This document shows, piece after piece, positions 6,392 through 63,632 of a DNA stretch of 64,000 nt. A model generated the notes under the pieces. The model ran no database searches. It had not been told where the DNA came from and was given only the letters and a program-made list of their open reading frames with translations. The stretch covers positions 62,001 to 126,000 of the forward strand of contig PLMN01000010.1 in assembly GCA_003141555.1 (NCBI GenBank), read 5' to 3'. Both the position numbers and the translations under genes were made by a program. This DNA is from Candidatus Aminicenantota bacterium. Its GTDB lineage: Bacteria; Acidobacteriota; Aminicenantia; Aminicenantales; UBA4085. Within the stretch, counting starts at the first letter, position 1, and every line of letters begins with the position of its first letter.

Positions 6392-7438
6392 TCAGACGAT
6401 CAGCATGCAGTCGCCGTAGGAAAAGAAGCGATAGCCTTCATGGACGGCTTCGCGGTAAGCGGCCAGGATGAGATCCCGGCCGGCGAAGGCCGACACGAGC
6501 ATCAAGAGCGTTGATTTCGGTAGGTGGAAGTTCGTCAACAGCCGGTCGACGACCCGGAATTCGAAACTGGGATAAATGAAGATCGACGTCGCGGCGCGTC
6601 CGGCCATGATTCCGCCGGATCCGCTTTCGCCGCGCCGGGCCGCGCTTTCGAGCGCCCGGACGACCGTCGTCCCCACGGCGGTCACGGTCCGGCCCTCGCC
6701 CTTCGCCGCGCCGATCGCCGCGGCCGCGGCCTCGGAAACCACGTATGTCTCCTCGAGCATTCGATGGTCTTCAAGGCGTTCCATCCGCACGGGCTGGAAC
6801 GTAGCCGGGCCGACGTCGAGCGTAACCTCGACGACGGACACGCCCTTTCCCCGGACCTCGCCCAGGATCTCCGGCGTGAAGTGGAGGCCGGCCGTCGGCG
6901 CGGCGATGGCGCCATCCTTCGCGGCGAATATGGTCTGATACCTGTCCAAATCTCCGGACCGGTGCTTGACGTCTTCTTTCTTGCGTTTGATATAGGGGGG
7001 CAGAGGCGCGTATCCGATCGACTTGAGATGCCCGAGGACATCGATGATCGGAAATTGGAGCGTTCTTCGGCCTTCATCTCCCGTCCCGGCCACTTCGGCC
7101 TCGAGCCCGGCGGGAAAAACGATCTTATCTCCGAAATGGACGCGTTTGGCCGGCTTGCAGAGGACCTCCCACAATCCCGCCGCTTTCTCCTTGATGAACA
7201 GGAATTCGATCGACGCATCGCCCCGCCGGCCCCAGGCCTTGGCCGGAATGACCTTCGTGTCGTTCAGAACAAGAACGTCGCCCGGATTCATATGATCCGG
7301 GAATTCCCTGAATCGGGCGTGAAAGAATCGGCCATCCTTACGCGAAACGACCATCATCCGCGAATCGTCCCGGCGGGCGAGGGGGTGTTGGGCGATCAGC
7401 CCGGGCGGGAGGTCATAGTCGAAATCGGCTGCGAGCAT
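6392..7438 (-). CDS. queA: S-adenosylmethionine:tRNA ribosyltransferase-isomerase QueA, 348 aa
   Basis: It transfers and isomerises the ribosyl part of S-adenosylmethionine onto preQ1 at tRNA position 34, forming epoxyqueuosine. Family-typical segments are present across the full length: FDYDLPPGLIAQHPL at the N-terminus, DVLVLNDTKVIPA, the AAPTAGLHFTPE region, VTLDVGPATFQPV and NFHLPKSTLLMLVSAF near the C-terminus. The length is normal. It is the last gene of the ruvA-ruvB-small ORF-queA set, six bases after the small ORF stop, so its translation may be coupled. Confidence 0.97.
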   Translation of the reverse strand: MLAADFDYDLPPGLIAQHPLARRDDSRMMVVSRKDGRFFHARFREFPDHMNPGDVLVLNDTKVIPAKAWGRRGDASIEFLFIKEKAAGLWEVLCKPAKRVHFGDKIVFPAGLEAEVAGTGDEGRRTLQFPIIDVLGHLKSIGYAPLPPYIKRKKEDVKHRSGDLDRYQTIFAAKDGAIAAPTAGLHFTPEILGEVRGKGVSVVEVTLDVGPATFQPVRMERLEDHRMLEETYVVSEAAAAAIGAAKGEGRTVTAVGTTVVRALESAARRGESGSGGIMAGRAATSIFIYPSFEFRVVDRLLTNFHLPKSTLLMLVSAFAGRDLILAAYREAVHEGYRFFSYGDCMLIV

Positions 7439-7444
7439 GCCGGA

Positions 7445-7603
7445 TCATTTGTTCCGACGGGCGGCCAGACCGAAACCGAGAAAATATTTCCGCCAGGCTT
7501 GTTCAGTGGATTGGAATTGATTGTCGCCCAGGAAAAAATCAAGCAGCTCCTCCGCCATGATTTTGAGTTCCGTCAACGATATCGGCGAAGCGATGATCCG
7601 CAT
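7445..7603 (-). CDS. Small ORF between ruvB and queA, 52 aa
   Basis: The ATG lies five bases after the ruvB stop and is preceded by AAGGA inside the ruvB end, a good ribosome site; the stop is six bases before queA. The N-terminal stretch IASPISLTELKIMAEEL resembles, from memory, the opening of DUF5674-type proteins (usually about 100-110 aa), but the expected continuation is missing and the remainder (ending GFGLAARRNK) is unlike it. It may be a genuine small protein or a truncated, decayed DUF5674 gene that preserves translational coupling between ruvB and queA. Confidence 0.5.
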   Translation of the reverse strand: MRIIASPISLTELKIMAEELLDFFLGDNQFQSTEQAWRKYFLGFGLAARRNK

Positions 7604-7608
7604 GGCGG

Positions 7609-8655
7609 TCAATCCTTGAAGAGCTTTTTCTGGCGGGGCGGGGGAGCCGTCCGGCCGCCGGGCGGGGCGAAGCCGAGGTGCTCGTAGGCCCGGGGGGTGA
7701 GCTTCCGGCCGCGCGTCGTCCGCTCCAGAAAGCCGATCCGCATCAGGAACGGCTCGTAGATGGACTCGATCGTGTCCTTGTCCTCATCGATGGCCGCGGA
7801 GATGGTGCCGATCCCGACCGGCCCGCCGCTGAAATTTTCGATGATGGTCGTCAGGATCTTGCGGTCGACGTCGTCGAGCCCGAGCGAATCGACCTCCATC
7901 TGGTCCAGGGCGTGGCGGGCCTCGCGGCCCGTGATCACGGCCTGCTCCCGGACGTCGGCGTAGTCGCGCACCCGCCGCAGGAGCCGGTTGGCCACCCGCG
8001 GCGTCCCCCGGCTCCGGAGCGCGATCTGGGCCGCTCCCTCGTCATCGATCCGGACCTTCATGATATCCGCCGCCCGGAGGATGACCTGCTTGATGTCCTC
8101 GTCCTTGTAATAGTCCAGGCGGTGGATGATCCCGAACCGGCTCCGGAGGGGCGCCGTAATCCGGCCCGCCCGGGTCGTGGCCCCGATGAGGGTGAATTTC
8201 CGAAGCTGAAGCTTGTGGCTTCGGGCGCTCGGGCCCTGGCCGATGAGGATGTCGAGGCTGAAGTCCTCCATGGCCGAGTAGAGGATCTCCTCGACGGAGG
8301 GGTTCAGGCGGTGGATCTCGTCGATGAAGAGCGCCTCCTTCGATTGGAGGTTGGAGAGGATGGCGCTCAAGTCGCCGATGCGCTCGATGACCGGGCCGGC
8401 CGTCGGCTTGATGCCCACGCCCATCTCCTTGGCGATCAGGTAGGCCAGGCTGGTCTTCCCCAGGCCGGGCGGGCCATAGAGCAGCACGTGATCGAGGTGC
8501 TCGTTCCGCTTCCGGGCGGCCTCGATGAAAATCTTGAGATTGGCCTTGATGTTGCCTTGGCCGATGAACTCGTCGAAGGTCCGGGGCCGGAGGCTGTCCT
8601 CGAAGAGGAGATCCTCTTTCGTCCGGACGGGGTTGAGGACGGCGGGTTCGCTCAC
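7609..8655 (-). CDS. ruvB: Holliday junction branch migration ATPase RuvB, 348 aa
   Basis: AAA+ motor ring that drives branch migration with RuvA. Walker A is GPPGLGKT, Walker B is [11 protein letters not shown], sensor 1 is in LIGATTRAG, and the C-terminal winged helix ends in FMRIGF-like sequence ([16 protein letters not shown]). The N-terminal [12 protein letters not shown] is typical. Translation starts at GTG 8655, one base after the ruvA stop, so the two are tightly coupled. Confidence 0.98.
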
Positions 8656-8656
8656 G

Positions 8657-9247
8657 TCAGACCCTGGCCATCTTCTTCAGGCATTCGCGGAGGAGCTTCT
8701 CGAAATCCGGGGGCTCGCCCTTGTGGGCCCGCAGGGTCGCGTCCACGACGTCCTCGGCTTCCTTGCGGCGGAAGCCGAGGTTGAGGAGGGCCGAGACGAG
8801 GTCCTCGCGCTCCGGCGATTCCCGGCCGGCGAGGAGCTTCTCCTTCTTTTCGAGCTTGTCCTGGAGCTCCATGGCGATCCGGAGGGCGGTCTTCTTGCCG
8901 ATGCCGGGAATGGCCGTGATCCGGTCGATATCGCTTTTCTGGATGGCGTCGACGAGCTCGACGGCGTTCATGCCGGAGAGGACGTTCATGGCCAGCTTGG
9001 GGCCGATCCCCGAGACGGAGATGAGCTTGAGGAACAGGTCGCGCTCGTCGCTCGTCTTGAAGCCGTAGAGCGACAGGGCGTTATCGGTGAGATGGGTGTG
9101 GATGAGGAGCTCGACCGACCGGCCGACCTCGCCCAGCTCGAAATAGGTCGTCAGCGGGATCGCCGCGCAGTAGCCCACGCCGCCGACGTCGACGACGACC
9201 TGGTGGGGCTGCTTCTGGAGGATCGTGCCCTTGAGATAGGCGATCAT
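8657..9247 (-). CDS. ruvA: Holliday junction DNA-binding protein RuvA, 196 aa
   Basis: Tetrameric junction-binding subunit of RuvAB. The OB-fold start MIAYLKGTI is canonical, followed by two helix-hairpin-helix motifs ([16 protein letters not shown] and [17 protein letters not shown]) and a short domain III (residues about 145-196). The ATG at 9247 was preferred over an upstream in-frame TTG at 9268 because the conserved family start is MIAYL and because the TTG overlaps the promoter, whose -10 box ends nine bases before the ATG. No Shine-Dalgarno sequence is present, suggesting a leaderless message. Confidence 0.97.
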
Positions 9248-9256
9248 GTCGCCGCC

Positions 9257-9285
9257 ATTGTAAAACAACCTGGGGGCAAAATCAA
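9257..9285 (-). promoter_or_regulatory. Promoter of ruvA-ruvB-queA, apparently leaderless
   Basis: On the minus strand, TTGATT (9280-9285), 17-base spacer, TACAAT (9257-9262), nine bases before the ruvA ATG. +1 would fall two or three bases before the start codon. Confidence 0.6.
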
Positions 9286-9322
9286 AACGCGGCCGGCGCC
9301 ACCCGCCGGGCGCAACGGGCTT

Positions 9323-9350
9323 TTGACACGAACGCGGTTTTTGGTATAGT
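9323..9350 (+). promoter_or_regulatory. Promoter of the cyclase-kinase cluster
   Basis: TTGACA (9323-9328), 16-base spacer, TATAGT (9345-9350). Divergent from the ruvA promoter, with the two -35 boxes 37 bases apart. No other convincing promoter appears before the four plus-strand genes that follow. Confidence 0.65.
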
Positions 9351-9422
9351 AAACAGGGTGGATTTCATGTATTTTATGGGATCGCCCGACCTTCGACGGC
9401 AGAAAATACCGAGGTGCTCCGG

Positions 9423-11021
9423 ATGAAGATCTTCCATACGGGCCCGGCCGGATCGGCCGAAGAGTTCGTGACTCGGGCCGCCTCGGTCCTCATCGGCCGC
9501 AAGCTTCCCCCCGGTCCCGGCGCTCTCGGCCTCGACGACGTCAAGGTCTCGGCCAACCACGCCCGCCTGAGCTCCGAGGACGGCGACTACTGGATCGAGG
9601 ATCTCGGCAGCACCAATGGGACCTGGGTCGACCAGAGGAGGATCACGCCCCGTGAAAAGACACGCCTGGCGACGAGCTCGGTGATCCTGGTCGGCCAGAC
9701 GACCCTGCGGCTCGAGGCGCCGGCTGCGGCCGGACCGTCGTCCGCGCCGGCGGTCGATCCGGCCTTTCCGGGCCCGGGACAGAGCCTTGTCCACTCCGTC
9801 GAAGCGGGGCAACCCCTGTCCGAGCTCTACCGGGCCGGATCGTCATCGATCGACGCCGCGGAGACGCGACTGCGGGAGGTCTGCGAGTTGAGCACCGCCC
9901 TGGGCGAGATCGACGGCGGGGAGTCCTTGGCCACGACCGTGCTGGACCACCTGCAGCGGGCGTTCCCGGAGGCCGGCCGCGGGGCTCACTTCGGGGTCCT
10001 TCTCGGCGAGGACCTCGTCCTCAAGGGATTCCGTCCGGATGACGAGCCGCCGACCTGCAGCCTGACCCTGGCCCGGTATGTCGTGGCGCAGAAAACGGCC
10101 CACCTCTGGGAAATCAGCACCCCCCAGACCGTCGAAAAATCGGCCAGCATCATCCGGGGCGGGGTCCAGTCGGCTATGTATGCGCCGCTCGTCTGGAAGG
10201 GAGAAGTCCTTGGGGTCCTCTACATGGACGCGACCTCGCCCAAGGCGTCCTTCAGCGCCGATGACCTGAGGCTGCTGCAGGCCATCGCCACGCACGCGGC
10301 CATGTCCCTCAAATCGTCGATCCTCCAGCAGACGCTTCTCCGCGAGGAGACCGTCAAGACGCGGCTCTTGGCCCAATTCCCCCGCGCCATCGCGGAGCGC
10401 CTGGCCCGCCAGCCCGGCCGCCTGGCCATTTCCAGCGAGCGGATCGAGACGGCGACCGTCATGTTCTCCGACGTCCGAGGCTTCACCGGGCTGACCGCCA
10501 AGCTCGAGCCGGAGGAAACGGTCCAGATGCTCAACGACATGTTCCAGGAGCTGACGCCGATCGTGCTCAAATACGACGGGACCGTCGACAAGTACATCGG
10601 CGACGCGATCCTGGCCGTCTTCGGGAGCCCCGATCCCGACGCCCGGCAATGGGAGCACGCCGTTCGGGCGGCCCTGGACATTCAGGCGGCGATCAAGCGC
10701 CTGGGAGCGGGCGTCTGGAAAGGCAAGATTGCGTTCGAGGTCGGCATCGGCATCCATACCGGTCCGATTATCCACGGTTTCATCGGGGCCCCCGAGCGGA
10801 TGGACTACACCGTCATCGGGGCCACCATCAACGAGGCTTCCCGCATCTGCAACGGCGCGGGCCCCGGCGAGATCCTGATCAGCCCGGCGGCCTACGGCCG
10901 CCTGCACGACGCGGTCGATGTCGAGCTCCCGCCGCGGGAATTCGAGACGAAGCACGAAGGCCCGATGAAGGCCTATCGCGTCGTCCGCTGGCGAGGCCGA
11001 CTCAAGGCCAAGCGAGGATAG
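9423..11021 (+). CDS. FHA-GAF-class III adenylate cyclase, 532 aa
   Basis: Three domains are visible. An FHA phosphothreonine-binding domain (about 1-95) has SANHARL and GSTNGTW. A GAF sensor domain (about 150-305) follows. A class III nucleotide cyclase domain (about 340-510) has both metal-binding aspartates (D350 in FSDVRGFT and D394 in DKYIGD), the ATP-specifying K390 and D461 (MDYTVIG), and N470/R474 of the transition-state pair (NEASR). It should therefore make cAMP, gated by a small ligand on GAF and possibly by phosphoprotein binding on FHA. Start at the ATG 9423, eight bases after GAGG; a GTG lies nine bases upstream. The kinase gene begins five bases after its stop. Confidence 0.93.
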   Translation: MKIFHTGPAGSAEEFVTRAASVLIGRKLPPGPGALGLDDVKVSANHARLSSEDGDYWIEDLGSTNGTWVDQRRITPREKTRLATSSVILVGQTTLRLEAPAAAGPSSAPAVDPAFPGPGQSLVHSVEAGQPLSELYRAGSSSIDAAETRLREVCELSTALGEIDGGESLATTVLDHLQRAFPEAGRGAHFGVLLGEDLVLKGFRPDDEPPTCSLTLARYVVAQKTAHLWEISTPQTVEKSASIIRGGVQSAMYAPLVWKGEVLGVLYMDATSPKASFSADDLRLLQAIATHAAMSLKSSILQQTLLREETVKTRLLAQFPRAIAERLARQPGRLAISSERIETATVMFSDVRGFTGLTAKLEPEETVQMLNDMFQELTPIVLKYDGTVDKYIGDAILAVFGSPDPDARQWEHAVRAALDIQAAIKRLGAGVWKGKIAFEVGIGIHTGPIIHGFIGAPERMDYTVIGATINEASRICNGAGPGEILISPAAYGRLHDAVDVELPPREFETKHEGPMKAYRVVRWRGRLKAKRG

Positions 11022-14142: not shown

Positions 14143-15261
14143 TTATTTCGTGTCGCCCAAAGCGACGTTCAGCACCACGATTTCCGAATAGCCGATCGTC
14201 CGGACCCGCGGTCCCCAGAGCTGGATCCCGCTCGTCACGTAGAAGTGCGTCGAGCCTTTCTGTAGTTCCCCCCAGCTCAGCTCGTATTCCCGGTCGGTGA
14301 TGAGGTTGATCGGGAACAGCTGCCCGTGGTGGGTATGCCCGGAGAGCTGGATGTCCGTCCGCGTCCGGCTCACGGCGTCGAAGTCGGTCGGGCGATGGTC
14401 GAGGAGGATGACCGGCAGATCCTCGGGCGTGTCGTCCAGGAGGACGGCCGCGGATTTCCGACCGGCGAACCGGGCGTCCAGGCGGCCGGCGAGATAGAAT
14501 GCGTCGTCGATTTTCACGACCTCGTCCCGGAGGATGCGAATCCCCGCCTTGTCGAAAAAGTCGGCCCGAGCCCCGGCAAGGCGGTCGTGGTTTCCCAGCA
14601 CGCCAAAGACCCCGTACCGGGACTCGATCCGCCTGAACCCGGCTTCGAATCCGGCGAGGGCCGTATCCCGGCGGTCGCCTTCGAGGATATCGCCTCCCAG
14701 AAGGACGATGTCGGGCTTCAGGGCGTTGACCTTGTCCGCGAACCGGGCCATGAAATCGGCCTCGGTCTGTTCACCGAGATGGAAGTCGGCGGCGAAGACG
14801 ATTTTGAGCTGCGCCACGGCGGACGATCGGCGAGGGATTTCGACCGGGAATTCGTGGTATCGGATATGGTGGAAGTTCCAGATCCCGCAGCCGACCACGG
14901 CGATCGGGGCGAGCAGGTAGAACGCGAGCCGGGCTTTCTTGAAGCCGGGCGCCCCGACGGCGCCCCGAGAGAAGACGCGGAGAAGGCGAAGAAGGCCAAT
15001 GACAAGGTCGGAGAGGATGACGATGAGGACGATATACAACAGGAGAGGAAGCGCATAGTAGCCGACGAGCACGAGCGTCCGGCTCCAGGCGGCAACGGAA
15101 CGGCGGGACAGGACCTGGGAAAGGGGGAACGCCAGGACGACGATCAGATAAAACCCGAGGAAGAGGTTCTTGCCCAGCCGCCGCGAGATAAGCTCCCTGA
15201 TGCGGAGCAGGGCATAGAGCACGAGGGGCAGCGTCAACAGGAAATCGTTTAGAATGTACAT
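14143..15261 (-). CDS. Membrane-anchored metallophosphoesterase, 372 aa
   Basis: The N-terminal 150 residues hold about four hydrophobic helices, followed by a calcineurin-like metallophosphoesterase domain with the full set of metal motifs: FAADFHLGE (DxH), LLGGDILEGD (GD), LGNHDRLAG (GNHD), LLDHRPTDF and SGHTHHGQLF (GHxH). The layout matches YkuE/YaeI-like membrane phosphoesterases, whose substrates are often lipid-linked phosphates. The ATG at 15261 was chosen because the predicted helix MYILNDFLLTLPLVLYALL begins there. A TATAAT -10 box on the minus strand lies at 15298-15303, without a good -35. Substrate unknown. Confidence 0.88.
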   Translation of the reverse strand: MYILNDFLLTLPLVLYALLRIRELISRRLGKNLFLGFYLIVVLAFPLSQVLSRRSVAAWSRTLVLVGYYALPLLLYIVLIVILSDLVIGLLRLLRVFSRGAVGAPGFKKARLAFYLLAPIAVVGCGIWNFHHIRYHEFPVEIPRRSSAVAQLKIVFAADFHLGEQTEADFMARFADKVNALKPDIVLLGGDILEGDRRDTALAGFEAGFRRIESRYGVFGVLGNHDRLAGARADFFDKAGIRILRDEVVKIDDAFYLAGRLDARFAGRKSAAVLLDDTPEDLPVILLDHRPTDFDAVSRTRTDIQLSGHTHHGQLFPINLITDREYELSWGELQKGSTHFYVTSGIQLWGPRVRTIGYSEIVVLNVALGDTK

Positions 15262-42744: not shown

Positions 42745-43200
42745 CTACTTGGCCTTGGCTTTTTTCTTGGCGGCGGCGATTTTCTTGTCGGTGAGCTCCA
42801 GGGCGTCCTGGAGCGTGATGCCGCTGAAATAATCCTTCAGGAGCTGGGTCGCTCCTTTCCAGATGTCGTGGGTCCCGCAGATTTTCGTCTTGTCGCAGTA
42901 GGTTTCGTCCTCCACGCACTCCACGAGGCTGCATGTGCCCTCGAGCGCCTGAAGGACGTCGCAGACCCGGATCTCGGTCGGGCTCTTGCCGAGCGTGTAG
43001 CCGCCGCCCGCGCCCCGGATGCTCTTGACCAGCTTGTTGATTTTCAAGGGGATGATGATCTGTTCGAGGTAGCGGATGGAGATGCCCTCTTCCTCGGACA
43101 CGTTCTTCAGGATGATCGCCTCGCGGCCGTTCTTATGATGACGGGCCAGATTGACCATGAGCCGCATTCCGTAGCGCCCCTTGGTGGATAGCTTGATCAT
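42745..43200 (-). CDS. Rrf2-family regulator with Fe-S-type cysteines, 151 aa
   Basis: An Rrf2/IscR winged helix: MIKLSTKGRYGMRLMVNLA, then SIRYLEQIIIPLK and the wing RGAGGGYTLGKSP. After it come cysteines in the order CSLVEC, YCDKTKIC, the spacing used for iron-sulfur cluster binding in IscR/NsrR-type members. Such proteins sense redox, nitric oxide, iron or sulfur status. The start at 43200 follows AAGGAG. It probably controls resB-ccsA, its own gene, and perhaps the divergent iorAB operon. Confidence 0.92.
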   Translation of the reverse strand: MIKLSTKGRYGMRLMVNLARHHKNGREAIILKNVSEEEGISIRYLEQIIIPLKINKLVKSIRGAGGGYTLGKSPTEIRVCDVLQALEGTCSLVECVEDETYCDKTKICGTHDIWKGATQLLKDYFSGITLQDALELTDKKIAAAKKKAKAK

Positions 43201-43243
43201 GCCGGACTCCTTCAGGATCCGTGAAACATTGATTTTCAAAAGG

Positions 43244-43272
43244 ATTATAGGCCAGCCCCGCGCCGTTTTCAA
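43244..43272 (-). promoter_or_regulatory. Promoter of the rrf2-resB-ccsA unit
   Basis: On the minus strand, TTGAAA (43267-43272), 17-base spacer, TATAAT (43244-43249). Confidence 0.75.
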
Positions 43273-43273
43273 C

Positions 43274-43283
43274 ATAAATTTAT
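43274..43283. promoter_or_regulatory. AT palindrome, possible Rrf2 site
   Basis: ATAAATTTAT, a perfect 10-bp palindrome, begins one base upstream of the -35 box and is followed by ATAGGAATGATAGG, a partial direct repeat. AT-rich palindromes are common Rrf2 binding sites. Confidence 0.4.
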
Positions 43284-43452: not shown

Positions 43453-45048
43453 ATGACCAAAGAGATTTTGCTCGGCGATGAAGCGGCGGCCCTCGGCGCC
43501 GTCCACGCGGGCTTGTCCTCGGGCTATTCCTATCCCGGGACTCCCGCCTCGGAGATCATGGAGTACCTCATCCGGATCTCGGGCGGCGGGACGAAATTCA
43601 CGGCGGACTGGTCGGTCAACGAAAAAACGGCCTTCGAGGAGGCCCTCGGCGCCTCCTATGCCGGGCAGCGGGCCCTGGTCTCGATGAAACATGTGGGGCT
43701 CAACGTGGCCGCCGACCCGTTCATGAGCGCCGCGCTTACGGGGGCGAACGGCGGGCTTCTGGCGATCGTCGCCGACGACCCGGGGATGCACAGCTCCCAG
43801 AACGAACAGGACAGCCGCTTTTACGCCCAGTTCGCCCAGATCCCTTGCTTCGAGCCGGCGAACCATCAGGAAGCCTACGACATGGCCCGGGAAGCGTACG
43901 ACCTCTCCGAACGCTGGGGCGTCCCGGTCATGCTCCGGATGGTCACGCGCTTGTCCCACAGCCGGGGCGGGGTCGTGACTCGGGAGGGGCGGCCCAAGAA
44001 CCCGATCCGCCTCGGCGACCGGACCTGCTGGACGCTCCTGCCGATCAACGCCCGGAGCCGCTTCCAGCGCCTCTTGGACCTTCAGCCCGAATTCGGGCGC
44101 TACGCCGACGCATCGCCCTTCAATTCCCTCGATCTCAATCCCGGCGACCGGCGCCTGGGCATCATCGCCTCGGGCATCGGCGTCAATTATGTCCGGGAGA
44201 ACATCGAGGGCTCCGCCGCGGCGCCGTCCGTCCTGAAAATCGGGACGTATCCGATCCCCGAGGGGCTCGTCCGCCGGCTCGTGGCCCACGTCGAGACCGT
44301 CCTCGTCATCGAGGAAGGAGCCCCCCTGATCGAGCGAAGCCTCAAGGGACTTTTCGGGATCCCCGGGAAGACCCTGACCGGAAAGCTGAGCGGGCATCTT
44401 CCCCTCGCCGGCGAGCTGTCGCCGGAGAGCGTCCGGAAGGCCCTTGCCCTCCCGGCGCTCGAGCGGATGTCGTGCCCCGAATTCGAGCTGGCCGGCCGGC
44501 CGCCCCAGCTCTGCGTGGGATGTCCCCACGCCGACACGTTCAGGGCCCTTAACGAGGCCCTAAAGGGCCGGTCCGGGGCCACGGTCTTCAGCGATATCGG
44601 CTGCTACACGCTCGGCTGGTTCCCGCCCTTCAATGCCATCGATACCTGCGTCTGCATGGGGGCCAGCATCGGCATGGCCAAGGGCGCGTCCGAGGCCGGC
44701 GTCCACCCCGCGGTGGCCGTGATCGGCGATTCGACCTTCGGCCATTCCGGCATCACCGCCCTCCTCAGCGCGGCGTCGTTCAAGGCCCGCATGGTCGTCG
44801 TCATCCTGGATAACTGCACGGTGGCCATGACCGGCGGCCAGCCGAGCTTCGCCACGGGCGACCGGCTCCTGCGGATCATCGAGGGCGTGGGCGTTCCCCG
44901 GGACCGCATCCGGGTGATCACCCCGCTCCCGAAATTTCACGAGGAGAACGTCCGGATCCTGGCCGAGGAGATCGACGCCCCGGGGCTGTCGGTGATCGTG
45001 GCCGTGCGCGAGTGCCTCGAAGAGGCCCGCAAGAAGGCCAAGAGGTAG
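43453..45048 (+). CDS. iorA: Indolepyruvate:ferredoxin oxidoreductase alpha subunit, 531 aa
   Basis: With IorB it oxidatively decarboxylates aryl (and related) 2-oxo acids to acyl-CoA, reducing ferredoxin. Seen: the N-terminal pyrimidine-domain LLGDEAAALGAVHAG and SGYSYPGTPASEIMEYL, LCVGCPHADTF, and the thiamine-diphosphate site GDSTFGHSGITAL with ILDNCTVAMTGGQ. Usual IorA proteins end in a ferredoxin-like domain with two [4Fe-4S] clusters; here the protein stops after VRECLEEARKKAKR and that domain is missing. Start at 43453 with AAGGA at 43441-43445. Confidence 0.93.
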   Translation: MTKEILLGDEAAALGAVHAGLSSGYSYPGTPASEIMEYLIRISGGGTKFTADWSVNEKTAFEEALGASYAGQRALVSMKHVGLNVAADPFMSAALTGANGGLLAIVADDPGMHSSQNEQDSRFYAQFAQIPCFEPANHQEAYDMAREAYDLSERWGVPVMLRMVTRLSHSRGGVVTREGRPKNPIRLGDRTCWTLLPINARSRFQRLLDLQPEFGRYADASPFNSLDLNPGDRRLGIIASGIGVNYVRENIEGSAAAPSVLKIGTYPIPEGLVRRLVAHVETVLVIEEGAPLIERSLKGLFGIPGKTLTGKLSGHLPLAGELSPESVRKALALPALERMSCPEFELAGRPPQLCVGCPHADTFRALNEALKGRSGATVFSDIGCYTLGWFPPFNAIDTCVCMGASIGMAKGASEAGVHPAVAVIGDSTFGHSGITALLSAASFKARMVVVILDNCTVAMTGGQPSFATGDRLLRIIEGVGVPRDRIRVITPLPKFHEENVRILAEEIDAPGLSVIVAVRECLEEARKKAKR

Positions 45049-45057
45049 GAGCCCGCC

Positions 45058-45642
45058 ATGATTACGAGCCGCAAGCAGGACATCATCCTGGCCGGAGTCG
45101 GGGGGCAGGGGATCCTGTCCATCGCCTTCGTCATCGACAACGCCGCCCTCCGCGAGGGCTTCAACGTCAAGCAGGCCGAGGTCCACGGCATGGCCCAGCG
45201 CGGAGGCGCGGTCCAGTCGCACCTCCGGCTTTCCAGAGACGCGATCCACAGCGACCTCATTCCCAAGGGCGCGGCCGACCTCGTCCTGAGCGTCGAGCCC
45301 CTCGAGGCTCTCCGCTACCTGGACTACCTCCGCCCGGGCGGCCGCGTCGTCTCGAGCAGCACGCCTTTCATCAACATCCCCGATTACCCCAAGCTCGAGG
45401 CGGTCCTCGGCCGGATCCGGGAGATTCCGGGCAGTCTCGTCCTCGATTCGGAGGCCCTGGCCAAGGAGGCCGGGACGTCCAAGGCCCAGAACACGGTCAT
45501 CCTCGGGGCCGCCGCGAGCTTCCTGGCCGTCGCGGAGGAGTCGCTCCTCGAATACATCAAGGTTTTGTTCGCCCCGCGCGGCGACAAAGTCCTCGGCGCC
45601 AACCTGAGGGCGTTCGAGCTCGGGCGGAAAGCGGCCGGGTAA
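45058..45642 (+). CDS. iorB: Indolepyruvate oxidoreductase beta subunit, 194 aa
   Basis: The gamma-domain-type subunit: N-terminal DIILAGVGGQGIL, then EVHGMAQRGGAVQSHLRL, both typical of IorB. Length is normal. It lies nine bases after iorA and one base before the acyl-CoA synthetase gene, so all three should be made together from one transcript. Confidence 0.94.
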   Translation: MITSRKQDIILAGVGGQGILSIAFVIDNAALREGFNVKQAEVHGMAQRGGAVQSHLRLSRDAIHSDLIPKGAADLVLSVEPLEALRYLDYLRPGGRVVSSSTPFINIPDYPKLEAVLGRIREIPGSLVLDSEALAKEAGTSKAQNTVILGAAASFLAVAEESLLEYIKVLFAPRGDKVLGANLRAFELGRKAAG

Positions 45643-45643
45643 C

Positions 45644-47986
45644 ATGGCCCTCAATTTCAAGGCCATCGACCGCATCTTCGAAGGCGCCGAGCGCGACGGC
45701 CGGTCTTTCTTGTTCGAGCATGAGGTCTACGCCGTGCTCGAGCGGGCGGGCGCGGCCGTCCCGAAGCATCGATTCGTCCCCAAAGGCGGGACAATCGGGG
45801 CGCGCGACCTGGCCGGGTTCAAGTCCGGCGAGCTCGTCCTGAAGATCGTCGCCCCTCTCATCCAGCACAAGACCGACGTCGGCGGCGTCCTGTTCGTCAA
45901 GAACCGGGCGGCGGCGGTCAACGCGGGCGTCAAGGCGATGCTGGCCTCCGTCCCGGGCCGGTTCCGCGCCTGGATAAAGGGCTCGGCCCACCGGGCCGGG
46001 TCGGCCGTCCCCTCGCTTGCCGAGGTCGAGGCCGACATCCGGGGCGTCCTGGTCTGCGAGAAGGTGGCCTACGAGAAATTCGGGTTCGGGACTGAAATCC
46101 TCCTCGGCATCCGCAACACCCGCGAGTTCGGCCCGGTGATGACGATGGGCGCCGGCGGCGTGGAAGTCGAGTTCCTGAACGAGCGCCTGAAGGAGACTGC
46201 GGCGGCGGCGATCGCCTCCCCGCATCTCCTCGCCCGGAAAGACATCCTGGCTCACCTCGAGCCGCTGGCCGTCACGGCCAAGCTCATCAAGCCCTTCCGC
46301 GGCCGGCCGGCGGTCCTCCCGGCGGCCGTCCTCCGCGAAACCTACGCCCGGCTGGCGGCCTTGGCGGCGCATTACTCTCCCTTCGCCGGGAGCCGGTTCG
46401 TCATCGAGGAAGCCGAGGTCAATCCCTTCGTCGTCCGGGACGGGGCGCTGGTTCCTCTCGACGGCTTGTGCCGATTCTCGGGGGCGCACATCGCCCTCGC
46501 GGGCCGGCCAGTCGCCGAGATCGCCCGCCTCCTCCGGCCCGAGTCCATCGCCCTGATCGGCGTCTCGGAGCGGATGAACATCGGCCACCTCATCCTCAAC
46601 AACATCCTGGCCCAAGGCTTCGCCGCCGAGCGCCTTTACATCGTTAAGCCGGGGATCGACCGGATCGAGGGCTGCCGCTGCGTGCCCGACATCGCCTCGC
46701 TGCCGGAGACCGTGGACCTCTTCGTCCTGACGCTCGGGGCCGAGCAGTGCGGCGACATCGTGGCCGAGCTCGTCGTGCGCGGCAAGGCGCGGTCGGTCAT
46801 CCTGATCGCCGGGGGCATGGGCGAAAAGCAGGGCGGTGCGAGCATCGAGGAGCGGATCGTCCGGATCCTGGCCGAGGGCCGGGCCGAGGGCCGCGTGACG
46901 CCCGTCATCAACGGCGGCAACTGCCTGGGCATCTATTCCAAGCCGGGGCGCTATGACACGACGTTCATCCCCAAGATGAAGCTCCGGATCCCCAAGGCCG
47001 AGCGCTCCATCCTGGCCTACATCAGCCAGAGCGGGGCGTTCATGATCTCGCGGATCAGCAAGCTCAGCCGGATCGAGCCGCTCTACGCGATCTCATTCGG
47101 CAACCAGCTCGATCTCCGCGTCTCCGATTACCTGAATTATCTGAAGGGCGAGCCGGATGTCCGGATTTTCGCGGTCTACATGGAGGGCTTCAAGCCGGGC
47201 GACGGCTACCTGCTGGCCGCGGCGGCCCGAGAGATTCTCGAGGACCCGGGCCGGTCGGTCGTGGTTTACAAGAGCGGCCGGTCGGCCGAAGGGCGGCTGG
47301 CGACGTCGAGCCACACCGCCTCGGTGGCCGGCGAATACGGCGTCTTCCGGGCCGTCCTCGAGGGAGTGGGCGTCTTCGTCGCGGAGACCATTTTTGAGTT
47401 CGAGAACATGCTCGTCGCCCTCGATGCCCTGGATGGCCGCCCCGTCCGGGGAAACCGCGTCGGCCTGATCAGCAATGCGGGCTTCGAGAACGTGACGATG
47501 TCGGACAGCCTGGGCGAGGGGCGGGACCGGCTGGTCCTGGCCGCCTTCACGGACGCGACCAAGGCGCGCCTGGCGGCCGCCCTGGCCCCGCTCGGCATCG
47601 ACAAGCTCCAGGACGTGAAGAACCCGCTCGACACGACCCCCGTGGCGGACGATGCCGTCTTCGCCGAATGCGTCCGGGTGATCCTCGAGGACCCGGGCGT
47701 CGATTGCGCCGTCATCTCGCCGGTGCCCATGACCGCGGCCATGCAGACCCTTCCGGCCGGCCCCGGGACCCGGGAAAACATCCTGGATCCGGGCAGCACG
47801 CCGTCGCGCCTGATCGAGCTCTTCCGGGCTACGGACAAGCCCCTCGTGGCGAACATCGACGCCGGCGCGGACTACGATCCGATGGCGGTCCTTTTGGCCG
47901 CGGCGGGGGTGCCCGTCTTCCGGCGCTCGGACGAGGCGGTGAAGTTCCTGGGCCGCTATGTCGGCGCCCGGCGGAACCGCGGCTGA
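45644..47986 (+). CDS. Fused ADP-forming acyl-CoA synthetase, ATP-grasp first, 780 aa
   Basis: It converts acyl-CoA, ADP and phosphate to free acid, CoA and ATP. The N-terminal 240 residues are the ATP-grasp (beta) half with the loop histidine H75 in IQHKTDVGGVLF; from about residue 290 come the CoA-binding and ligase (alpha) domains, with ALIGVSERMNIG, YISQSGAF and the phosphohistidine region SSHTASVAG (H557). Both histidines needed for phosphate relay are present. The order beta-alpha is the reverse of the more familiar alpha-beta fusion. Placed after iorAB it should harvest ATP from aryl-acetyl-CoA. Confidence 0.9.
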   Translation: MALNFKAIDRIFEGAERDGRSFLFEHEVYAVLERAGAAVPKHRFVPKGGTIGARDLAGFKSGELVLKIVAPLIQHKTDVGGVLFVKNRAAAVNAGVKAMLASVPGRFRAWIKGSAHRAGSAVPSLAEVEADIRGVLVCEKVAYEKFGFGTEILLGIRNTREFGPVMTMGAGGVEVEFLNERLKETAAAAIASPHLLARKDILAHLEPLAVTAKLIKPFRGRPAVLPAAVLRETYARLAALAAHYSPFAGSRFVIEEAEVNPFVVRDGALVPLDGLCRFSGAHIALAGRPVAEIARLLRPESIALIGVSERMNIGHLILNNILAQGFAAERLYIVKPGIDRIEGCRCVPDIASLPETVDLFVLTLGAEQCGDIVAELVVRGKARSVILIAGGMGEKQGGASIEERIVRILAEGRAEGRVTPVINGGNCLGIYSKPGRYDTTFIPKMKLRIPKAERSILAYISQSGAFMISRISKLSRIEPLYAISFGNQLDLRVSDYLNYLKGEPDVRIFAVYMEGFKPGDGYLLAAAAREILEDPGRSVVVYKSGRSAEGRLATSSHTASVAGEYGVFRAVLEGVGVFVAETIFEFENMLVALDALDGRPVRGNRVGLISNAGFENVTMSDSLGEGRDRLVLAAFTDATKARLAAALAPLGIDKLQDVKNPLDTTPVADDAVFAECVRVILEDPGVDCAVISPVPMTAAMQTLPAGPGTRENILDPGSTPSRLIELFRATDKPLVANIDAGADYDPMAVLLAAAGVPVFRRSDEAVKFLGRYVGARRNRG

Positions 47987-62694: not shown

Positions 62695-63632
62695 AGGTCG
62701 GGGGAGCGCAGCCCCCTCTCTCCTCGTCGCCTAAGGGGAGGATCTTCGACATTCAGCACTATGCGGTCCACGACGGGCCGGGTATCCGGACGCTTGTCTT
62801 TCTCAAGGGCTGCCCGCTGGCCTGCGCCTGGTGCGCCAATCCCGAATCGCGGCGTTCCGACCGCGAGGTGCGCCAGATCCTCGCCCGATGCCGCTCCTGC
62901 CTGCGCTGCGCCGGAGCTTGCCCGAGCGGGGCCATTGCCGAAACGGAAGGGCGTCCGCGGCTCGACCGGAGGCGTTGCGCCATGTGCGGAGGGTTCGAGT
63001 GCGTCGCGGCCTGCCCCGAGCACGCCTTGATCATCGCGGGGGAGGAGTGGTCGCTCGACGACCTCATCGCCCGCGTCGCTAAAGACATCGACTTCTACCG
63101 TAACTCCGGCGGCGGGGTGACATTCTCCGGCGGCGAGCCATTCGCCCAGGCTGAGTTCCTGCTCGCCGCCCTGGCCGGCTGCAAGCGCCTCGGCATCCCC
63201 ACGGCCGTCGAGACCTGCGGTCAGGCCGCGCGCGCCGATATCCTGGCCGCCGAGCCGCTCGTCGACCTCTTCCTCTTCGACTTTAAAGTCGTCGATTCGG
63301 CCCGTCACCGCAAATTGACGGGGGCCGACAACGGCGTCATCCTTGATAATTTGCGCTTTCTCGCTGATCGCGCCCCCGGCAAGATCGTGCTGCGACTGCC
63401 CGTCGTGCCCGGCTTGACCGATGACGAGAATAATATCGGGGCGATCGCCGCCCTCGCGGCCGAGCTCCGCGTGGCGCGCGTCGAGCTCTGTCCCTACCAT
63501 CCGCTCGGCCGGCCCAAGTATGCCGAGATCGGGCTCCCCGAGCCGCCCGACCCGCCCCAGCCCCTGCCGGCGGAGCTGCTGCGGATCGCCGGCGTCCTCG
63601 AGACGCGCGGGATTCGCTGCGGCCCCGCTTAG
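62691..63632 (+). CDS. Glycyl radical enzyme activase (radical SAM), 313 aa
   Basis: It installs the glycyl radical on the upstream enzyme. The radical-SAM cluster motif is GCPLACAWC (CxxxCxxC), followed by two ferredoxin-type [4Fe-4S] motifs (CRSCLRCAGACP and CAMCGGFECVAACP) and GGGVTFSGGEPFAQ. The insertion with eight cysteines is typical of activases for the dehydratase/decarboxylase branch. The start is GTG at 62691, overlapping the GRE stop (GTGA), with about 15 extra N-terminal residues before GRIFDIQHYAVHDGPG. Confidence 0.95.
   Translation: MKVGGAQPPLSSSPKGRIFDIQHYAVHDGPGIRTLVFLKGCPLACAWCANPESRRSDREVRQILARCRSCLRCAGACPSGAIAETEGRPRLDRRRCAMCGGFECVAACPEHALIIAGEEWSLDDLIARVAKDIDFYRNSGGGVTFSGGEPFAQAEFLLAALAGCKRLGIPTAVETCGQAARADILAAEPLVDLFLFDFKVVDSARHRKLTGADNGVILDNLRFLADRAPGKIVLRLPVVPGLTDDENNIGAIAALAAELRVARVELCPYHPLGRPKYAEIGLPEPPDPPQPLPAELLRIAGVLETRGIRCGPA

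Follow-up and report, generated by a model that had tools for sequence, protein, structure and literature searches.

A short IorA lacking the C-terminal ferredoxin domain, encoded beside an acyl-CoA synthetase in an Aminicenantes genome

The iorA operon and the end of its first gene

We investigated an iorA-iorB operon in a 3.79-Mb genome of 33 contigs. The window, i.e., the whole stretch of DNA analyzed (64,000 nucleotides), corresponds to C24:62001-126000 of this genome, and the named genomes closest to it are Candidatus Aminicenantes MAGs, one of which (L019) is 85% identical. The operon consists of three genes, with a divergent regulator gene upstream:

42745..43275, minus strand: Rrf2-family regulator, divergent to iorA (Pfam Rrf2, 112.2 bits)
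43453..45048, plus strand: iorA, short alpha subunit, 531 aa, with POR_N and TPP-binding domains and without a C-terminal ferredoxin domain
44512..44523, plus strand: CVGC in iorA, Cys354 and Cys357, predicted ligands of the proximal [4Fe-4S] cluster (present in 114/114 alignment rows)
44602..44604, plus strand: Cys384, predicted third ligand (114/114 rows)
45013..45015, plus strand: Cys521, predicted fourth ligand, 10 residues from the end (113/114 rows)
45016..45045, plus strand: basic tail LEEARKKAKR at the C-terminus; long forms continue from here into the ferredoxin domain
45058..45642, plus strand: iorB, beta (gamma-type) subunit, 194 aa (Pfam POR; NF005324, 264.1 bits)
45644..47986, plus strand: fused ADP-forming acyl-CoA synthetase of 780 aa with an N-terminal ATP-grasp half (ATP-grasp_5, CoA_binding_2, Succ_CoA_lig)

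IorA harbors POR_N at residues 15-172 and TPP_enzyme_C at residues 381-471 (Pfam), with CVGCPH at residues 354-359, in agreement with the thiamine-diphosphate elements and the motif noted in the original prediction. The order of POR_N and the TPP-binding domain, their fusion in one chain, the CxGCPH motif, and the separate IorB are shared with the alpha subunit of indolepyruvate:ferredoxin oxidoreductase (IOR; TIGR03336), whereas the C-termini differ. Residues 3-529 of IorA matched positions 2-539 of the 595-position model, leaving unmatched the last 56 positions (540-595), where TIGR03336 has an eight-Cys 2[4Fe-4S] domain; the missing part is therefore the C-terminal ferredoxin domain. Its absence, as originally claimed, was evident from the end of the match, from the lack of a nearby cluster motif, and from the alignment described below. 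The score (511.6 bits) was below the curated cut-off of 650.9, placing IorA outside this equivalog; its substrate is therefore not assured by the model.

IorB scored above the cut-off of 222 for its family model (NF005324; PRK06853.1-4). The synthetase contains the CoA-binding, Succ_CoA_lig, and ATP-grasp domains of ADP-forming acyl-CoA synthetases (PF13607 type) but reached only 217.4 bits against the acetate-CoA ligase alpha model TIGR02717 (cut-off 567.15), and by that model it would not be of the acetate type. In an AlphaFold model of IorA (mean pLDDT 87.8), residues 1 to ~305 matched OFOR alpha chains at Z of 27.6-29.6; residues 1-302 matched 6n2n_A (Z 29.6, 295 residues aligned, rmsd 3.0) and 5b46_A (Z 28.1, 293 aligned, rmsd 3.1). 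However, many other thiamine-diphosphate (ThDP) enzymes tied with the OFORs while matching the whole chain, and the fold by itself is therefore not specific to OFORs.

When all six frames of the window were scanned for CxxCxxCxxxC, no match fell near iorA, which bears out the claim that the operon has no small ferredoxin gene. The one match in an open frame, at 62889 (+), belongs to a different gene with a frame of 510 aa; a second, at 15239, has a stop inside the motif. By eye, the 510-aa frame resembles a glycyl-radical-enzyme activating protein.

The stop codon of iorA falls where the ferredoxin domain would begin, as would be expected had a sequencing error or frameshift stripped the domain from an otherwise normal IorA. 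We give this explanation, which was originally raised for the end of iorA, next to no probability. iorB starts 9 nt past the iorA stop, and there is therefore no room for a lost domain, nor is a cluster motif found nearby in any frame. The stop codon is at the same position in L019, and between the two genes dN was 0.093 and dS 0.527 (dN/dS ~0.18); the last 51 codons are also constrained (dN 0.093, dS 0.356). This protein was found at 43 named loci, of which 42 retain the entire 3' end: 39 with the short form and three with the long form. Judged by these relatives, a frameshift is excluded, and the comparisons indicate that iorA is a real, intact, and conserved gene whose product is not truncated.

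Distribution of the short form and its linkage to the synthetase

Within the same phylum, an IorA match was present in 150 of 396 genomes (E 1e-60), and among the matches listed the ends lay either near model position 540 or at 595. We also sampled Bacteroidales, the order holding L048 (a Muribaculaceae MAG), in which 82 of 99 genomes had a match; of 86 matches in total, 78 ended at 535-561, seven reached 595, and one was a fragment. Because 78 of the 86 end early, BT0430 of Bacteroides thetaiotaomicron, which we take to be a short IorA of ~530 aa, is likely of the short form as well.

For the alignment, 124 ORFs were reduced to 114 rows by dropping those cut at contig ends and those with identical C-terminal stretches, with L141 represented by the window copy; 15 further near-identical rows were removed for the tree. 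The tree (99 rows) was built without the ferredoxin-domain columns by a quick method, with SH-aLRT values only and a midpoint root. In this tree, 67 of 68 short proteins formed one clade (SH-aLRT 100), with members from Acidobacteriota/Aminicenantes, Bacteroidota, Spirochaetota, Planctomycetota, Bdellovibrionota, and Fibrobacterota and one MAG labeled Clostridiales. The exception, L119 (5057-6661, -), is a very divergent short IorA-like protein without Cys521. The genome of L119 also carries a long form (L143). Two other short proteins, L120 and L121, are long-branched, with Cys-bearing tails past the fourth ligand. L150 (157-2043, -) has a degenerate ferredoxin domain in which one Cys of the last cluster motif is replaced; it was labeled short in the alignment by a motif test and counted as long from the tree onward.

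These results suggest that the absence of the domain is old and a trait of the whole subfamily, with loss, as opposed to gain, the presumed direction on this quick, midpoint-rooted tree. The original prediction was to be overturned by many characterized IorA of the same short form, and this is nearly the case: a large clade has the short form as its rule, and an old, clade-wide trait would explain the apparent anomaly. In the titles and abstract openings of the papers searched, we found no description of a bacterial IorA without the ferredoxin domain.

The neighborhoods of the short genes were compared after leaving out eight loci as duplicates or truncated, with "short" defined here as a phmmer score >400 with the window IorA. 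A relative of the synthetase lay downstream of iorA in 53 of 73 short loci. When only the 65 loci whose downstream sequence extends to 1.5 kb or more are counted, the number is 51. Our first comparison with long forms was unfair, since most long loci had <1.5 kb downstream and, beyond the short clade, only nine of 43 rows had sufficient flanks, one of which (L143) has synthetase-like matches. When long loci were refetched with larger flanks, a synthetase match was found in 0 of 20. In four of these 20, an ORF resembled the phenylacetate-CoA-ligase-like protein of L052. Synthetase was lacking in 14 short loci with enough flank, several Bacteroidales loci being without a linked synthetase, unlike the window operon; among the 14, L047 and L052 have ligase-like ORFs and L048 a CoA-transferase-like ORF. 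The two queries were the proteins of L052 and L048, named by a reading of the sequence. An Rrf2-like ORF was near 18 of the 73 short loci.

Three loci (L109, L111 at 6667-9702, and L113) encode a single protein of 1011-1013 aa that combines IorB with the synthetase; the ORF of L109 runs to 1351 aa, probably from an overlong start, and the fusion of L111 was checked by Pfam. No description of an IorB-synthetase fusion was found among the papers searched. The association as such is already known: a 2026 study (PMC13285125) reports ADP-forming acyl-CoA ligase or kinase genes in the vicinity of many Peptostreptococcales OFORs of the IOR and VOR types. What is new here is its concentration in the short forms.

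The proximal cluster and the exit of electrons

Cys354, Cys357, Cys384, and Cys521 were kept in 76, 76, 76, and 75 of the 76 rows labeled short, respectively, and in all 38 rows labeled long. Conversely, the eight cysteines of the ferredoxin domain were present in 37-38 of the 38 long rows and in 0-3 of the 76 short rows. Apart from these positions, a Cys at residue 132 (43846-43848) was kept in 62 of 76 short rows and five of 38 long rows.

The positions of Cys384 and Cys521 presumably serve as ligands, as in other OFORs. Residues 353-521 of the IorA family profile aligned with residues 11-197 of 5b48_B, the beta subunit of a Sulfolobus tokodaii OFOR (StOFOR). The CxGC and GC motifs align residue by residue, Cys384 pairing with the Cys of "GIGC", and the pairing of Cys521 follows from the end points of the aligned stretch. 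Cys12 and Cys15 are ligands of the only cluster in StOFOR, according to excerpts of its structural report (PMC5020499). Because the four proximal-ligand cysteines are kept while the ferredoxin domain is gone, the short IorA is predicted to be a single-cluster OFOR like that of Sulfolobus. Only the internal two-cluster relay would be missing; the original prediction had not noted that all proximal-ligand cysteines are kept.

The short IorA would thereby join a known architecture: as excerpted from the same report, StOFOR1 and StOFOR2 (5b46-5b48) are likewise two-subunit enzymes with one proximal [4Fe-4S] cluster and no internal ferredoxin domain (PMC5020499). However, the genes are split differently. 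In StOFOR, domains III-I-II (gamma and alpha) form one chain and domain VI (beta) another, whereas IorA joins alpha and beta and leaves gamma to IorB. The substrates of StOFOR also differ from those predicted for IorA/IorB.

The original prediction held that electrons must leave through a separate ferredoxin or a different acceptor. Its first option is likely but not distinctive, since OFORs at large usually pass their electrons to an external ferredoxin, as parts of the StOFOR report state (PMC5020499). StOFOR itself reduces external ferredoxin with a Km of 2-3 uM, and the ferredoxin was modeled in the pocket left by the missing domain, beside the sole cluster (PMC5020499). A search of our genome for a stand-alone ferredoxin, as originally proposed, found an 81-aa protein at G000:C24:170145-170390, outside the window and ~63 kb downstream of iorA, with Fer4 (32.9 bits) and Fer4_7 (30.5 bits) both above cut-off. 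Our analysis thus favors a free ferredoxin as the probable direct acceptor of the short IorA.

Alternatively, a separately encoded ferredoxin protein could form a permanent third subunit in place of the lost domain. Multi-subunit OFORs do have such a subunit, according to parts of PMC13285125, and this genome encodes a 99-aa dicluster protein within another OFOR locus (C24:178.6-181.2 kb). That protein, however, sits in its own OFOR cluster, and short iorA genes do not share a neighboring ferredoxin gene: a CxxCxxCxxxCP ORF was found in two of 73 loci, with varying flank lengths, and these two ORFs (258 and 628 aa) do not resemble a small ferredoxin. We therefore regard a permanent third subunit as quite improbable.

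Very improbable, in our estimate, is an acceptor of another kind, such as flavodoxin, NAD(P)+ via a flavoprotein, or a membrane complex. It would accord with the failure to find a route for ferredoxin re-oxidation in the genome, where the best RnfC match (163.6 bits) was below the cut-off of 245.95 and the [FeFe]-hydrogenase large subunit (PF02906) had no match. Yet the three genes of the operon encode no flavoprotein domain, and the known single-cluster relative, StOFOR, uses ferredoxin in the portions of its report cited here (PMC5020499). As a side observation, the RnfC-like frame (G000:C4:105000-118000; L152) lies, by eye, beside PduL-like and shell-protein-like ORFs, which suggests that this stretch is a bacterial microcompartment locus.

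With a free ferredoxin as the favored acceptor, we also considered the basic tail as a ferredoxin dock peculiar to the short forms. Of 74 short proteins, 71 carry a net positive charge in this stretch; the idea was rejected, since the same stretch is basic in long forms (medians +3 and +2).

A predicted ATP-making module

We consider it likely, with good confidence, that iorA and iorB encode a two-subunit aryl-pyruvate oxidoreductase with ThDP and one [4Fe-4S] cluster, which hands electrons to a soluble ferredoxin while the adjacent synthetase makes ATP; its role would probably be aromatic amino acid breakdown. A 2-oxoacid, which may be indolepyruvate, phenylpyruvate, or 4-hydroxyphenylpyruvate, would be decarboxylated on ThDP. 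Electrons would then pass one at a time to the putative proximal cluster held by Cys354, Cys357, Cys384, and Cys521, and the acyl group would be transferred to CoA. A soluble 2[4Fe-4S] ferredoxin may dock in place of the absent relay domain and take the electrons directly, and the synthetase would convert aryl-acetyl-CoA to the acid and ATP, assuming that it runs in this direction. The pathway would thus lead from aryl-pyruvate via aryl-acetyl-CoA to aryl-acetate with a yield of one ATP.

The link of iorAB to an ATP-making synthetase suggests a way in which uncultured Aminicenantes may draw energy from aromatic amino acids. Since the absence of the domain appears old and clade-wide, annotation that requires the ferredoxin domain or the TIGR03336 cut-off would under-call aryl-pyruvate oxidation in Bacteroidales and Aminicenantes.

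More tentatively, the short IorA may represent a separate, single-cluster branch of aryl-pyruvate oxidoreductases that works as a unit with the synthetase. In such a unit, aryl-acetyl-CoA would be fed directly to the synthetase, as the physical joining in the IorB-synthetase fusions would allow, and, with the internal relay lost, a low-potential proximal cluster would be open to ferredoxin docking. Oxidoreductase and synthetase together would then make up a full module of two steps that yields ATP when uncultured Aminicenantes and other bacteria ferment aromatic amino acids. This is possible, although we hold it to be somewhat less than an even prospect.

Both halves of the proposed module have counterparts in known systems. 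The ADP-forming acyl-CoA synthetases of Pyrococcus furiosus convert acyl-CoA to acid and ATP as the terminal step of fermentation, as described in excerpts of PMC3942289; those enzymes have two subunits, whereas the synthetase here is a single fused polypeptide encoded next to iorAB, and in three relatives it is part of the same protein as IorB. BT0430-0429 of B. thetaiotaomicron is a two-gene OFOR like iorA-iorB and, according to parts of PMC10746243, is the main source of 4-hydroxyphenylacetate, which was lowered by deletion of BT0430 and restored by complementation.
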